DNA of 33,282 nucleotides, from IMG/VR virus record IMGVR_UViG_3300031688_000069, positions 1 to 33,282 of that record. One strand, written 5' to 3'. Below, one piece after another: positions 3,430 through 11,138 of this stretch. The translations under genes were made by a program, and so were the position numbers. The first letter of the stretch is position 1; each line of letters begins with the position of its first letter. Source of the DNA: a virus. The notes beneath the pieces were generated by a model. That model saw only the letters and a list, made by a program, of their open reading frames with translations. It did not search any database and was not told where the DNA came from.

Positions 3430-3471
3430 GGATTTCTCGCCGAAACGCGACCGCTCTTTGACAATAAACGA

Positions 3472-3513
3472 GTTTATCAGGCCGGCATTGCCTAACAGTG
3501 CCGCCGAGTAAAC
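3472..3513 (+). promoter_or_regulatory. Structured leader hairpin 1, upstream of the first early gene
   Basis: GTTTA (3472-3476) pairs with TAAAC (3509-3513). A TCA/GAG internal loop and GG/CC pairs follow, with one bulged C. The upper 8-bp stem CGGCATTG/CAGTGCCG (one G-U pair) has the loop CCTAA. The same architecture, with a different upper-stem sequence, occurs at 4631-4671. It ends 41 bases before the start codon and could be a protein-binding, processing or stability element in the mRNA leader. Confidence 0.6.
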
Positions 3514-3554
3514 CCGCAGTAACTAAACGTATCAAACTAAAAGGAAGCATAACC

Positions 3555-4406
3555 ATGTTAAAGAAAACTGACTTTTCAGCATTCGACACCTATAACCTAA
3601 TGACTAAAGCCGCTCTGATGCGCTTAGCTCGCGAGTATGAGGTTAAAGGGTCGCTCTTTGCAGATCCACTAAGCAATCCAAAGGTAGCAAAGAACGCCAA
3701 GGAAAACGGCGTGTTAACCTTCCCGTTACACTTAGCGCCATCTAATGTGAGTGGTTACAATACCTGTGCCATGGCTTCTGACGGCTGCAAAGAGGCATGC
3801 TTAAACACTGCAGGTAACCCAATGTATGCCGCAGGTAAAGAGGCCGCGAGAACGGCTAAGACGCGCTTATACTTCGAGAACCGCCCATTGTTTGTCGCTC
3901 TGCTAATCAAGGAAGTTATATCCGCTCGCACTAAAGCAGCCAAGCTAAACATGGCCCTAGCGTTTAGACCTAACGCAACTAGTGATATTAAATGGGAAGT
4001 GTCAAAGGTTAACCATGTGGGCGTTTTCATGACTGTTATTGAGCTAATCCATTCGGCAGCGCCAGAAGCTACCATCTACGACTATACAAAAGTGCCAAAC
4101 CGTAACGTGCCAGGTTATTACTCGTTAACGTTTAGTTTATCTGAAAACAACGATGCGTTAGCAGCTGGCGAACTGTCACGCGGTCGTAACGTGGCGGCAG
4201 TGTTCACCACTAAGCGCAACCAACCATTACCAACCCATTACACAATTAACGGCGTTACCGCCACTGTGATCGATGGGGATCTAACCGACTATAGGCCAGA
4301 AGATAAGCAGGGTGTTATTGTTGGGCTACGTGCCAAGGGTGACGCGATAGGCGACACCTCCGGTTTTGTACGTCCAGAACACCAAACCACTTTTCTAGCC
4401 GCTTAA
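3555..4406 (+). CDS. Phage Gp88-like protein of unknown function with a Cys cluster
   Basis: This 283-residue protein is the first gene of the early block. It resembles a family found in many phages (Gp88-like) with the signature LHLAPSNVSGYNTC...GC...ACLNTAGNP followed by RTAKTRLYFENRPLFVALL. Three cysteines at 71, 78 and 82 (C-x6-C-x3-C) could bind a metal or cluster; this is inference. The open frame extends back to a GTG at 3498, but AAGGAAG before the ATG at 3555 fixes the start. The extension would also run through leader hairpin 1. Position suggests host takeover or another early role, with no direct evidence. Confidence 0.7.
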   Translation: MLKKTDFSAFDTYNLMTKAALMRLAREYEVKGSLFADPLSNPKVAKNAKENGVLTFPLHLAPSNVSGYNTCAMASDGCKEACLNTAGNPMYAAGKEAARTAKTRLYFENRPLFVALLIKEVISARTKAAKLNMALAFRPNATSDIKWEVSKVNHVGVFMTVIELIHSAAPEATIYDYTKVPNRNVPGYYSLTFSLSENNDALAAGELSRGRNVAAVFTTKRNQPLPTHYTINGVTATVIDGDLTDYRPEDKQGVIVGLRAKGDAIGDTSGFVRPEHQTTFLAA

Positions 4407-4433: not shown

Positions 4434-4580
4434 ATGACAATGAATCTACCAGACAGCATAACAATAGGATCTATTGAGTTTTTAGCCCATACGTGGCCCC
4501 TAGTGTTTGGCCTTCCGGCCTTCTTAATTCTATCTGCCTTCGTGGGTGTTCTCTACGAAGTCGCCAGCAGGGAGCAATAG
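4434..4580 (+). CDS. Small single-TM protein, unknown
   Basis: A 48-residue ORF opens at ATG 4434, with a second in-frame ATG at 4440. AAAGGA at 4425-4430 serves either start, and the spacing fits the second slightly better. One hydrophobic segment (WPLVFGLPAFLILSAFVGVLY) predicts a membrane helix, with a short charged C-terminus EVASREQ. It belongs to the run of small early genes. No family is recognised. An early inner-membrane protein could act in exclusion or host takeover, but this is only a guess. Confidence 0.55.
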   Translation: MTMNLPDSITIGSIEFLAHTWPLVFGLPAFLILSAFVGVLYEVASREQ

Positions 4581-4582
4581 CC

Positions 4583-4630
4583 ATGCAATTAGAATTATTT
4601 CCAGAGGCTGAACAACTAGAACTCTTTTGA
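4583..4630 (+). CDS. 15-residue ORF with two QLELF sliding-clamp-binding motifs
   Basis: The complete product is MQLELFPEAEQLELF. AGGGAG at 4569-4574 lies 8 bases before the ATG, ideal for ribosome binding, and the ORF begins 2 bases after the preceding stop. QLELF fits the established bacterial beta-clamp (DnaN) binding pentapeptide QL[S/D]LF, and here it occurs twice, the second ending exactly at the C-terminus. The two copies use different codons (CAA TTA GAA TTA TTT and CAA CTA GAA CTC TTT), so they are not simply a recent DNA duplication. A role blocking the host clamp is inferred. The ORF is short enough that chance remains possible. Confidence 0.5.
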   Translation: MQLELFPEAEQLELF

Positions 4631-4671
4631 GTTTATCAGGTGGTTTTCAGTACGAGAGCCACCGAGTAAAC
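4631..4671 (+). promoter_or_regulatory. Structured leader hairpin 2
   Basis: GTTTA (4631-4635) pairs with TAAAC (4667-4671). The same TCA/GAG internal loop as in leader hairpin 1 follows. A 10-bp upper stem GGTGGTTTTC/GAGAGCCACC (two G-U pairs) has the loop AGTAC. Lower stem and internal loop are identical to 3472-3513, while the upper stem differs but still pairs. It starts directly after the stop of the 15-residue ORF and ends 26 bases before the next start codon. Confidence 0.6.
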
Positions 4672-4692
4672 CAAACGTAAAACAAAAGGAAG
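4668..4692 (+). repeat. 25-bp leader repeat, copy 1 (contains the ribosome site)
   Basis: This 25-base sequence, running from AAACCAAACG to AAAAGGAAG, is identical to 4874-4898. It supplies the AAGGAAG ribosome site for the gene at 4698 and overlaps the 3' arm of leader hairpin 2. Confidence 0.85.
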
Positions 4693-4697
4693 CAATC

Positions 4698-4886
4698 ATG
4701 AGAGCTACAAGCATTAATGTGAGCTATTACAAAACTGTCGAGGCAATCACTCAGGCTATTCATTCTATCGAAAATGACAGTGCGAACTATCATGGGGATT
4801 GGTTAAGAGGTGGCCCCGATATAACGCTAAAAGAAGGGGCTAAAAAGAAATTAGCCGCACTGCATAAGAATCTAAACCAAACGTAA
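4698..4886 (+). CDS. Small early protein, 62 residues, unknown
   Basis: The ORF begins at ATG 4698 after AAAAGGAAGCAATC, a strong ribosome site. The product is soluble and mildly basic with a Lys-rich C-terminal part (KEGAKKKLAALHKNLNQT). No domain is recognised. It sits in the early small-gene block, downstream of leader hairpin 2. Its last codons and stop lie inside the second copy of the 25-base leader repeat, so the repeat serves as both the coding end of this gene and the ribosome site of the next. Confidence 0.65.
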   Translation: MRATSINVSYYKTVEAITQAIHSIENDSANYHGDWLRGGPDITLKEGAKKKLAALHKNLNQT

Positions 4887-4905: not shown

Positions 4906-5184
4906 ATGATCGTAATTACAGCCATCAACAAAACCCATCAAGCCACCGTTAACCGCATGTATATAGCGGATCGTAAATATTCGGACCTTGTGAATGCTAA
5001 CGATGTAATAGCGGATACCGGCGAGTTTGAATACCCAGAAGATAACAAGCTGTATCGCCAAGGCATGGTTAGGCAGGAGAGGGCTTTTGACACGTTTATA
5101 ACGCACTGGGACACATTGCCTAAGCGTGAACAAAAGAACGCTGAACGCCAGTACAAAGCCATCCACGGCTATTCAATGAACTAG
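4906..5184 (+). CDS. Small early protein, 92 residues, unknown
   Basis: The ORF starts at ATG 4906 after AAAAGGAAGTATAAAG. The product mixes acidic and basic segments, with an aromatic-rich middle (EFEYPEDNKLYRQG) and a helical, charged C-terminal half (LPKREQKNAERQYKAIHGYS). No signal peptide, membrane segment or known motif is visible. It is one of four consecutive small early genes with similar leaders; such genes in T7-type phages often encode host-takeover proteins, but nothing here identifies a target. Confidence 0.65.
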   Translation: MIVITAINKTHQATVNRMYIADRKYSDLVNANDVIADTGEFEYPEDNKLYRQGMVRQERAFDTFITHWDTLPKREQKNAERQYKAIHGYSMN

Positions 5185-8458: not shown

Positions 8459-8508
8459 TAAGACCTTGTAACTAGTAGAGTTAAGGGCGATTTAAGGGGT
8501 TGTTGAAC

Positions 8509-9780
8509 GTGACAGACATAATACAGACAGAAAGTGCATCTGAGAATACTCTGCGTATAACTGAGAAGGAAAGAGAGATCTATTGGGAAGCCGCTGCCAT
8601 TGACAGGGGAAAAGACCGTTATAGAGGGACGTTTAGTACAGTAAAGGTTGGACGTGATGGAACTGTTAAACATGAATCAGCCGAGTTAGGGGACGTAGCG
8701 CCCGGTCAAATCATATTGAAGGAAATGATGCTTCATGCTGTTCCATACTTCCAAGCCGCCATCGAAGAAGCGAAGCGAGAAATCACTTCAGGACGCCGTG
8801 GTGCTCATAAAGAATGGTGGTGGTTGATCGGCTGGTTGACAGCTGAGGAGATTGCCTTAGTTACAGCCAGAACAATCCTAACTGAGAGAGCCAGTGGTGA
8901 TTCTTACCAAGGGCGTTCAGCCACAGGTTTGAACCTACGCATAGGCCAAGCCGTTAAGGAACAGATTGAATTCAACAGGTGGAAAAAGAACTCCAAGATC
9001 TTAGCAGCTGACCAAGGCGGCTTTGATTTTGCTGCTTGGCTAATCACTAAAGTGGGTGGCACGATTAACCGCCGCACATGGTCACGTTGGAAGGCTAAGA
9101 TGGACGCCATAGAGAACGAGGAATGGCCCTCAGACACGCGTGTTCAGATAGGGGCTAAGTTGTTGGACCTTATGATTAAACACGGTGGCGGGTGGTTTGA
9201 GGACCGCCTAGTCTACAAGACGGGAAAGACTGAGAGGCGGGTGTTTCTCAGCGAAGCAGCACAGCAGGCCATCACGGATATCAACGCACAATTGGAAGTG
9301 AATCGTCCTTATATGGTGCCGATGCGCTGCCAACCTAATCCTTGGGAGCATAAGTACAATGATGAGGGCAAGCTAACTGGGTTTACAGGCGGCTATGAGA
9401 TTATTCAGCACAAGATTATGCGGTCTGGTATGTACAAACACACAGCCAGCTACCCGGAAGCCTTGAGCGATAAGTTTCTAGACGCCATAAACGTGGTGCA
9501 GTCCACTGAGTGGCAAGTAAATGATTTCATTCTTGACACAATGTTAGTTATACGTGCAGAAGGTGGGGAGTTAGGTGGTATGCCTGCCCTTGAAAACGAT
9601 CCACTACCTGCCAAGCTCACAGATGAGGAATGGGATCTTATGGATCAGACTGAACGCACTGAATTGAAGCTTATGATAAGCCGAATTCACGAGGACAACG
9701 CTAAGATGCAATCCAAACGTGAATCACTAATCCGCAAACTTGATATGGCCCGTAGCTTACGCGGTGAAACTACTTATTAG
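8509..9780 (+). CDS. T7-like RNA polymerase, N-terminal half (split gene)
   Basis: The 423-residue product matches the N-terminal half of T7 RNA polymerase. Near the end, RPYMVPMRCQPNPW, the MYKHTASYPEALSDKFLDAI segment, STEWQVNDFILDTMLVI and PLPAKLTDEEWDLMDQTE correspond in order to T7 RPMLVPPKPW, the YMPEVYKAINIAQNTAWKIN segment and the ELPMKPEDID segment. It stops just before the conserved T7 motif FPYNMDWRGRVY, which opens the next gene. GTG 8509 is preferred since AAGGGG (8494-8499) lies 9 bases upstream; TTG at 8500 is too close. The start overlaps CAGACA copy C. It must act with the C-terminal subunit. Confidence 0.85.
   Translation: MTDIIQTESASENTLRITEKEREIYWEAAAIDRGKDRYRGTFSTVKVGRDGTVKHESAELGDVAPGQIILKEMMLHAVPYFQAAIEEAKREITSGRRGAHKEWWWLIGWLTAEEIALVTARTILTERASGDSYQGRSATGLNLRIGQAVKEQIEFNRWKKNSKILAADQGGFDFAAWLITKVGGTINRRTWSRWKAKMDAIENEEWPSDTRVQIGAKLLDLMIKHGGGWFEDRLVYKTGKTERRVFLSEAAQQAITDINAQLEVNRPYMVPMRCQPNPWEHKYNDEGKLTGFTGGYEIIQHKIMRSGMYKHTASYPEALSDKFLDAINVVQSTEWQVNDFILDTMLVIRAEGGELGGMPALENDPLPAKLTDEEWDLMDQTERTELKLMISRIHEDNAKMQSKRESLIRKLDMARSLRGETTY
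8513..8530 (+). promoter_or_regulatory. CAGACA direct-repeat element, copy C
   Basis: CAGACATAATACAGACAG differs from copy B at one base over 18. It overlaps the first codons of the RNA polymerase gene, so a bound protein could interfere with its transcription. Confidence 0.45.
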
Positions 9781-9818: not shown

Positions 9819-11138
9819 ATGACCAAACGAATTTCATCACGACACACATACCCACACTTTGCAGATTTCCGTACACGTTTATACCCTATGGCGCAGGACT
9901 TGAACCCACAGGGTGACCAGATCTGTAAGGGTCTGTTGCAATTCCACCACGCCAAGCCGTTAGGTGACCGAGGGCTTCACTGGTTGAAGGTTTCGTTAGC
10001 CAACACAGCAGGGCAGGATAAAGCCACATGGGCTGAGCGGATAGCTTGGGTAGATAAAAACCACGACTTAATCGTTGACTCAGGTCTAAACCCTCTGGAC
10101 GGTGACCGTTTGTGGGCAGATGAGTCCATCGATGAGCCATACGTTTTTCTAGCGACAGCCCGTGAGTATGCATTGGCTACAAGGCTTGATAATCCTGCAC
10201 ATTTCCTTAGCCGTACGGTCTGTGCCATGGACGGAGTATGTAATGGAATGCAAATCCTATCTCTATTAGGTAAGGACTCAGCCGGTGCGGTTAAGACCAA
10301 CTGTAGCAGCCTCCAGAAACGCTATGACCTGTACACAGAGGTAATGGATGCCGTGATTAAGCTTAATAATGATTGCGCTCTACAAGGCCGAGAGGAGGCC
10401 TTAGCGTGGATGGGAAACATCAAAAGGGTAACAGTGAAACGAGCAATAATGACAACGCCCTACGGCGTTACACCTCGTGGAATAGCCAGCCAGTTAGTGA
10501 AGGATGGCTTCTGTGATAACCTTGATGGTCGTAAAGGAACCAACGCTGCTTACATGCGTGACCTTATAGTTGAAGCTCTAAAGGATGTGGTGACTTCTGC
10601 CTCTACTATCATGGAATACTTCCAGCAATGTGCTAAAGCTCTCGCAGCACAGGAGATCCCGCTTAAGTGGGTGACGCCAACCGGTGTAGAATGCACACAG
10701 GCTTACCATAAGCTGCGTAAAACTAAGGTTACGACACTGATGGGACAGTTTTCTTTGTGGGATGAGGACTCAGACTTAGGCCTTGATGAGCGCAAGAACT
10801 ACCTAGCTGCCAGCCCTAACGTCATTCACAGCTTTGATGCTGGGTTACTCCAGAGTGTGGCACTTCGCCTCAAGAATGATTACGGAGTTAGCTCCACCGC
10901 CTTTATACACGACAGTTATGGTGTCCACCACGGACAGTTAGACTGCGGAGAGAATGCGGTTGATGTCCTCCATAAGGTAATCAGGGAAGAAGCGCACCGA
11001 ATCTTCAGCGGTAACTACCTGACTGAGTTCCGGGAGCACATCCATTCCTATGCACCACATGTAGAACTGCCTATGCCTCCAGCTCAAGGTGATTTTAACG
11101 TGGATGAACTATTAAACTCTCCTTACTTCTTCAGCTAG
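9819..11138 (+). CDS. T7-like RNA polymerase, C-terminal catalytic half (split gene)
   Basis: The 439-residue product carries the whole polymerase active site. The start (YPHFADFRTRLYPMAQDLNP then QGD) matches T7 FPYNMDWRGRVYAVSMFNPQG. Motif A has Asp138 (AMDGVCNGMQ), motif B has Arg203, Lys207 and Tyr215-Gly216 (RVTVKRAIMTTPYG), and motif C has His364-Asp365 (FIHDSYG). The C-terminus PYFFS resembles the T7 aromatic foot. A TAA at 9813-9815 is in frame directly upstream, so this cannot be read through from the first gene. The ribosome site is weak. Together the halves total about 862 residues versus 883 for T7, so nothing essential is missing. Confidence 0.9.
   Translation: MTKRISSRHTYPHFADFRTRLYPMAQDLNPQGDQICKGLLQFHHAKPLGDRGLHWLKVSLANTAGQDKATWAERIAWVDKNHDLIVDSGLNPLDGDRLWADESIDEPYVFLATAREYALATRLDNPAHFLSRTVCAMDGVCNGMQILSLLGKDSAGAVKTNCSSLQKRYDLYTEVMDAVIKLNNDCALQGREEALAWMGNIKRVTVKRAIMTTPYGVTPRGIASQLVKDGFCDNLDGRKGTNAAYMRDLIVEALKDVVTSASTIMEYFQQCAKALAAQEIPLKWVTPTGVECTQAYHKLRKTKVTTLMGQFSLWDEDSDLGLDERKNYLAASPNVIHSFDAGLLQSVALRLKNDYGVSSTAFIHDSYGVHHGQLDCGENAVDVLHKVIREEAHRIFSGNYLTEFREHIHSYAPHVELPMPPAQGDFNVDELLNSPYFFS

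Follow-up and report, generated by a model that had tools for sequence, protein, structure and literature searches.

A 15-codon early phage ORF with two putative DnaN clamp-binding motifs, resembling the N-terminal tail of gp82-family proteins

Introduction

The canonical bacterial clamp-binding motif follows the pattern Q-phi-x-[L/M]-[F/L], of which QLxLF gives the highest affinities, and the known clients of the DnaN sliding clamp all share one pocket (PMC11139829). A C-terminal carboxylate or an acidic residue after the motif helps binding, and several motifs in one ligand can raise the apparent affinity or avidity (PMC11139829). Free clamp-motif (CBM) peptides are micromolar binders, and growth arrest has not been demonstrated on their outside application (PMC11139829). 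Among bacterial proteins, Pol II, Pol IV, Pol V UmuC and Hda carry such motifs (QLxLF or QLxLxF) in terminal, disordered tails (PMC11139829).

Proteins that target DnaN have been described in bacteria and in phages. The toxins SocB of Caulobacter and RipA of Streptococcus pneumoniae stop replication by acting on the hydrophobic DnaN pocket (PMC9690074; PMC12795458), and SocB does so via a clamp-binding motif (PMC9690074). The Staphylococcus phage proteins Twort Gp168 and G1 gp240 target DnaN (PMC3594737). Gp168 is a folded protein; it sits in the DNA channel of the clamp and not in the canonical pocket (PMC11139829). In eukaryotes, a small disordered protein of the Spd1 type with tandem PCNA clamp motifs has been described as a competition-based system (Olsen et al. 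2024, cited by PMC11139829).

Here we describe a 15-codon ORF with two QLELF motifs in a viral DNA record, IMGVR_UViG_3300031688_000069; the whole stretch analysed, 33,282 nt, is called the window. The ORF shares with the bacterial clamp tails the pentapeptide consensus and the terminal, disordered position, and like Pol II and Pol IV it has a free C-terminal carboxylate after the motif (PMC11139829). The known bacterial clients are domains recruited by a motif, whereas this ORF is the motif alone, twice, in 15 residues. Action through a clamp-binding motif, as in SocB, is predicted for the peptide; SocB and RipA, however, belong to bacterial toxin-antitoxin systems, are of ordinary protein size and have antitoxins. 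Gp168 does not share the motif logic, and the motif of the window predicts the canonical pocket. The Spd1 type differs in being eukaryotic, larger and directed at PCNA, and serves as an analogy only. A further likeness is to tailed members of the L5 gp82 family (PF25735, phrog_586), which share the early locus and an N-terminal QLELFP tail with the ORF; the ORF lacks the whole gp82 domain, and a typical member of that family has no such tail. A free peptide of two clamp motifs was not described in the literature searched.

Results

Sequence of the ORF and its ribosome-binding site

The ORF at 4583-4630 (ATGCAATTAGAATTATTTCCAGAGGCTGAACAACTAGAACTCTTTTGA) was read directly and gave MQLELFPEAEQLELF followed by the stop. 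After the ATG, copy 1 is written CAA TTA GAA TTA TTT, the spacer CCA GAG GCT GAA, and copy 2 CAA CTA GAA CTC TTT, ending at TGA (features in Table 1). The spacing from AGGGAG to the ATG is 8 nt, and the anti-SD pairing ranks in the best 4.3% of the + strand ATGs of the window; the early neighbours starting at 3555, 4434, 4698, 4906, 5211 and 5425 all pair more weakly. This bore out the earlier note, which had reported two QLELF motifs at 4583-4630 with AGGGAG 8 nt upstream and had taken them for the beta-clamp consensus; QLELF fits the highest-affinity form, QLxLF (PMC11139829). No QLxLF beyond the two ORF copies was found in the three + strand frames of the window. The stop of the upstream small hydrophobic gene lies 2 nt before the ORF (TAGCCATG), and translational coupling of the two is possible. 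A longer reading of 45 codons that opens upstream, at 4493, was considered and rejected: its frame is a different one, it falls within the conserved small gene and it lacks a ribosome site.

Table 1. Positions of the ORF and neighbouring features in the window
Feature	Position	Strand	Remarks
GP88-family gene (PF17338)	3555..4406	+	Pfam E 3.3e-32; anchors the locus in relatives
Small hydrophobic protein gene	4434..4580	+	48 aa from ATG 4434, 46 aa from ATG 4440; homologues in L084, L011, L205-L211
Ribosome-binding site AGGGAG	4569..4574	+	within the last codons of the upstream gene; anti-SD pairing -7.4 kcal/mol
15-codon ORF	4583..4630	+	translation MQLELFPEAEQLELF
QLELF copy 1, putative clamp-binding motif (CAATTAGAATTATTT)	4586..4600	+	homologue, by sequence and by position, of the N-terminal tail that gp82-family proteins carry in L013, L082, L083, L084
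QLELF copy 2, putative clamp-binding motif (CAACTAGAACTCTTT)	4613..4627	+	extreme C-terminus; differs from copy 1 at 3 of 15 nt, 3 of 3 synonymous
14-nt palindrome AACTCTTTTGAGTT	4620..4633	.	overlaps the stop codon and the last bases of copy 2; 25-nt repeat D3
Intergenic hairpin element GTTTATC...GAGTAAACC	4631..4672	+	directly 3' of the ORF; stable fold of 4560-4715, z -2.9

Chance was modelled by order-2 Markov simulations of the window (n = 1500). The strict motif QL[SDENGTA]LF was expected 0.31 times per simulated window, so that a single motif means little. Not one of the 1500 simulated windows had a pair of strict motifs in the same frame within a span of 20 residues, and the same pairing of a looser motif occurred 0.013 times per window. 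Among variants of copy 1 with three substitutions, between 0.4% (uniform) and 2.6% (kappa 4) still encode QLELF.

The phage and its replication genes

The window encodes a T7-type terminase, a T7-like primase-helicase, a family A DNA polymerase and a T7/Enc34-type SSB, together with a thioredoxin-like protein, ribonucleotide reductase, PhoH, ThyX and a T7-type RNA polymerase. The proposal that the phage replicates in the T7 manner is thus matched by a phage-own family A polymerase, T7-like primase-helicase, T7-type SSB and thioredoxin-like protein. A tyrosine integrase and an HTH regulator are also encoded. From its gene content the phage is T7-like with its own replisome and, because an integrase gene is present, probably temperate and not of the plain lytic T7 type. 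A DNA-level search of the annotated phage collection gave no match to the window; isolated phages match at the protein level only, via the RNA polymerase and GP88, with at most about 43% identity.

Two other metagenomic contigs represent the same phage and are 99.9% identical to the window over a shared 4.9 kb; both carry an identical ORF. One of these two, 43.8 kb long, begins at window position 4760 and finishes at 4922. With an overlap of about 160 nt between its two ends, though not a letter-perfect one, it probably represents a nearly complete circle.

A QL[ED]LF tail on gp82-family proteins of relatives

Relatives were gathered by anchoring on GP88, the terminase and the small protein; no further copy of the 15-codon ORF was found among them, many of these contigs stopping before or at the locus. 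In L013 (terminase 94% and GP88 66% identical), the order is GP88, a hairpin element, a small hydrophobic gene and then a protein of at least 148 residues beginning MIRQLELFPQLDATIIRAYRNLHTGQ..., which matched PF25735 Phage_L5_gp82 (E 9.6e-19) and phrog_586. The gp82 domain begins only at about residue 16, so QLELF forms an N-terminal extension. Similar tails were found in L082 and L083 (MLKQLELFPQLDA) and in L084 (MTNQLDLFSNTPA, 51% overall identity). All four gp82 genes found in this phage group (51-74% overall identity) lie in the early region and carry the QL[ED]LF N-terminus, reading MIRQLELFP, MLKQLELFP (twice) and MTNQLDLFS. Across the six motif copies, the differences are synonymous changes and one E/D exchange.

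We then compared other members of the gp82 family. None of 48 (8 from isolate phages, namely Roseobacter, Mycobacterium, Bacillus-like, Microcystis and Rhodobacter phages, and 40 metagenomic, several of them near-duplicates) had a QLxLF tail; they begin at the domain or just before it. As these members lack the motif, QL[ED]LF is an addition specific to this phage group. Judged by its single copies on a larger early protein of relatives, the tag looks to be under selection. The earlier note had argued from the synonymous codons that the protein sequence was preserved, and the retention of the tail on these early proteins upholds that claim. Its proposed check, a search of related phages for short ORFs with the repeated motif, came out otherwise: outside this phage population the doubled form of 15 residues is not conserved, and the relative with an 84% identical GP88 lacks both the ORF and the small hydrophobic gene.

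Among the marks of a clamp ligand, the locus thus shows a QLxLF motif twice, an exposed or disordered stretch (the 15-residue peptide and the L082 tail) and conservation of the motif among homologues in 4 of 4 tail-bearing relatives, the doubled form occurring in one population only. In the AlphaFold (AF2) model of the L082 protein the domain is predicted with confidence (mean pLDDT 90.9); residues 1-6 score below 50 and are predicted to form a disordered tail. A fold search of the QLELF-gp82 model against the PDB gave nothing significant, and the literature on L5 gp82 held nothing assigning it a function.

Absence of the gp82 domain and uniqueness of the doubled peptide

A gp82 profile search recovered all four tail-bearing contigs as positive controls and found no domain in the ORF, in G000, in the near-complete genome G001 or in G003. 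No decayed gp82 relic was found after the ORF, where only QLELFP itself matched. With the domain absent from the window phage and no relic left, the 15-mer is best described, from sequence, as the tail of a gp82-family protein without its protein and with a second motif added. It is not assigned to the PF25735 gp82 family, whose domain was tested for and is absent, nor to the Gp168 kind.

A tandem scan used the pattern M..QLxLF..QLxLF-stop; the viral gap pattern needed an ATGA start and the genome pattern ATGCA, and the viral ATGCA search was of fixed length. It returned 21 stretches in viral contigs and 30 in genome contigs, and 0 of these were clean in-frame peptides preceded by a plausible ribosome site. 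IMG/VR and about 85,000 species genomes thus gave no other clean doubled peptide within the start contexts that the scans covered. The closest candidate, MQLDLFQQLNFF in L198, was rejected because its second motif is altered and it has no ribosome site. The doubled peptide belongs to one phage population of near-identical contigs, so selection on it is not directly measurable.

The palindrome, the hairpin and the upstream small gene

The palindrome AACTCTTTTGAGTT takes in the end of copy 2, from the last two bases of GAA through CTC TTT TGA, and its sole other copy in the phage (5864-5877) lies outside any called gene. Because the end of copy 2 falls in this repeated palindrome, a DNA-level constraint may contribute to part of copy 2, and not to copy 1.

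The family of the small hydrophobic gene at 4434 has a conserved HTWPL[VL]FG core in L084, L011 and L205-L211. It adjoins a QLELF ORF only in the window phage and is found elsewhere without one. Its protein had no Pfam or PHROG match and was not recognised as an antitoxin.

Discussion

We tentatively favour, at somewhat less than an even chance, a reading that makes the ORF a small early gene for a clamp-binding peptide, one with no domain, which competes for the host DnaN pocket. In the relatives, the disordered QL[ED]LF tail would dock the gp82-family protein onto DnaN, the sliding clamp of the host. The window phage would have kept the tail alone (QLELFP...), with a second QLELF at the C-terminus; once translated, the peptide would fill DnaN's canonical hydrophobic pocket in competition with the clamp loader, Pol III and repair proteins. 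Host replication or repair would then be slowed or mis-regulated early in infection, which could benefit the phage at little cost, as its DNA would be copied by its own T7-type replisome. By our estimate, the nine residues between the motif starts reach about 30 A at most, too few to bridge both pockets of one clamp dimer, so that any bivalent gain would come from rebinding or avidity. High expression would be needed, because free clamp-motif peptides bind in the micromolar range. As an integrase is present, the peptide could also reasonably affect clamp clients only mildly or selectively, instead of halting host replication altogether.

The main rival, which we think unlikely yet well worth weighing, is that a QLELF-gp82 gene lost its domain by deletion and left only its N-terminus behind as the ORF; copy 2 would have arisen by accident or by slippage at the deletion point with the help of AACTCTTTTGAGTT, and the peptide would be inert. 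In L013 the locus runs in the same order, from GP88 through the small hydrophobic gene to QLELFPQLD..., and there is a match over nine residues from the start of the motif (QLELFPQLD in L013 vs QLELFPEAE in the window ORF); the gp82 domain is gone from the window phage, and copy 2 overlaps the palindrome. However, a second perfect motif that differs only silently and ends exactly at the stop would be an unlikely accident, and the strong ribosome site is retained while no gp82 relic is left.

The other two alternatives both appear improbable. The peptide could be a clamp-docking modulator, whose weak binding to DnaN shifts replication or repair (e.g. clamp-dependent DnaA inactivation or mismatch repair) toward lysogeny or recombination while host replication goes on; a single CBM peptide binds in the micromolar range, and a phage with an integrase and an HTH regulator need not kill its host at once, but nothing specific indicates one clamp client. 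Or the stretch may be no protein gene at all but a DNA or RNA control element of palindrome and hairpin, in which the motifs are coincidental and which perhaps regulates the 4698 gene as an upstream ORF. That the ORF ends in the palindrome and abuts a stable hairpin repeated in the region and in relatives fits such an element, yet it leaves unexplained both the motif doubling (0/1500) and the protein tail in relatives, and the other hairpin copies (window 3472, L011, L013 and L082) are not preceded by a QLELF ORF.

Returning to the competing peptide, the fuller proposal is that the phage reduced a clamp-docking early protein to a doubled motif, that the 15-residue peptide is an encoded competitive inhibitor directed, unlike Gp168, at the pocket, and that the tailed gp82 proteins of relatives are clamp-recruited host-takeover proteins. 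Taken as a whole, this is a doubtful proposal. If real, it would mean that the QLxLF peptides studied in drug design against DnaN have a natural, phage-encoded counterpart in the form of a free two-motif micro-peptide, and that gene finders that ignore very short ORFs miss host-takeover genes. We know of no smaller phage replication inhibitor, should the peptide be one. Independently of the peptide, the tail gives a candidate partner, DnaN, for a widespread early gp82 family (Mycobacterium, Bacillus and Roseobacter phages).

Further observations on the early region

Hairpins with the fixed flanks GTTTATC...GAGTAAACC and variable stems form a family that precedes early genes, at 3472-3514 and 4631-4672 in the window, at 4126 in L013, at 1192 in L011 and at 5208 in L082. 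Paired stem changes were seen between the hairpins at window 4631 and L082 5208, and the family might be an RNA processing or stability element. The sequence GCTCTTTRACAA occurs exactly once in the window (3453-3464), within the leader that precedes the first early gene. Leaders of relatives have it too, sometimes twice (L010 3811; L013 2093 and 2244; L141 8881 and 9032; L207 264). It looks like the boxA antitermination signal of rRNA leaders, which points to antitermination of the early transcript through Nus factors.

A second small hydrophobic early family was found at 4242-4442 in L013 and 5898-6104 in L082, starting MNDMTQEQLDLLKAM and MNNMTQDQLNALIKT, respectively; the former contains QLDLL, a weak clamp-like motif that is absent from the latter. 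In L010 (6677-6844), a relative without the ORF, a 56-residue early protein ends in ...PQMELCFEPVTETLHNLMFDE. Its QMELCF is a loose fit to the hexameric clamp motif QLxLxF, possibly marking another clamp-motif early protein or arising by chance, and it carries no weight in the case made above.

The T7-type RNA polymerase of the window is split into two ORFs, 8500-9780 (N-terminal half, PF14700) and 9819-11138 (C-terminal half, PF00940), in different frames and 38 nt apart. The related 44.6-kb phage G003 (L214, L219) has the same split, with open frames of 431 and 440 codons, so a sequencing error is unlikely. The arrangement recalls the two-subunit RNAP II of phage N4.
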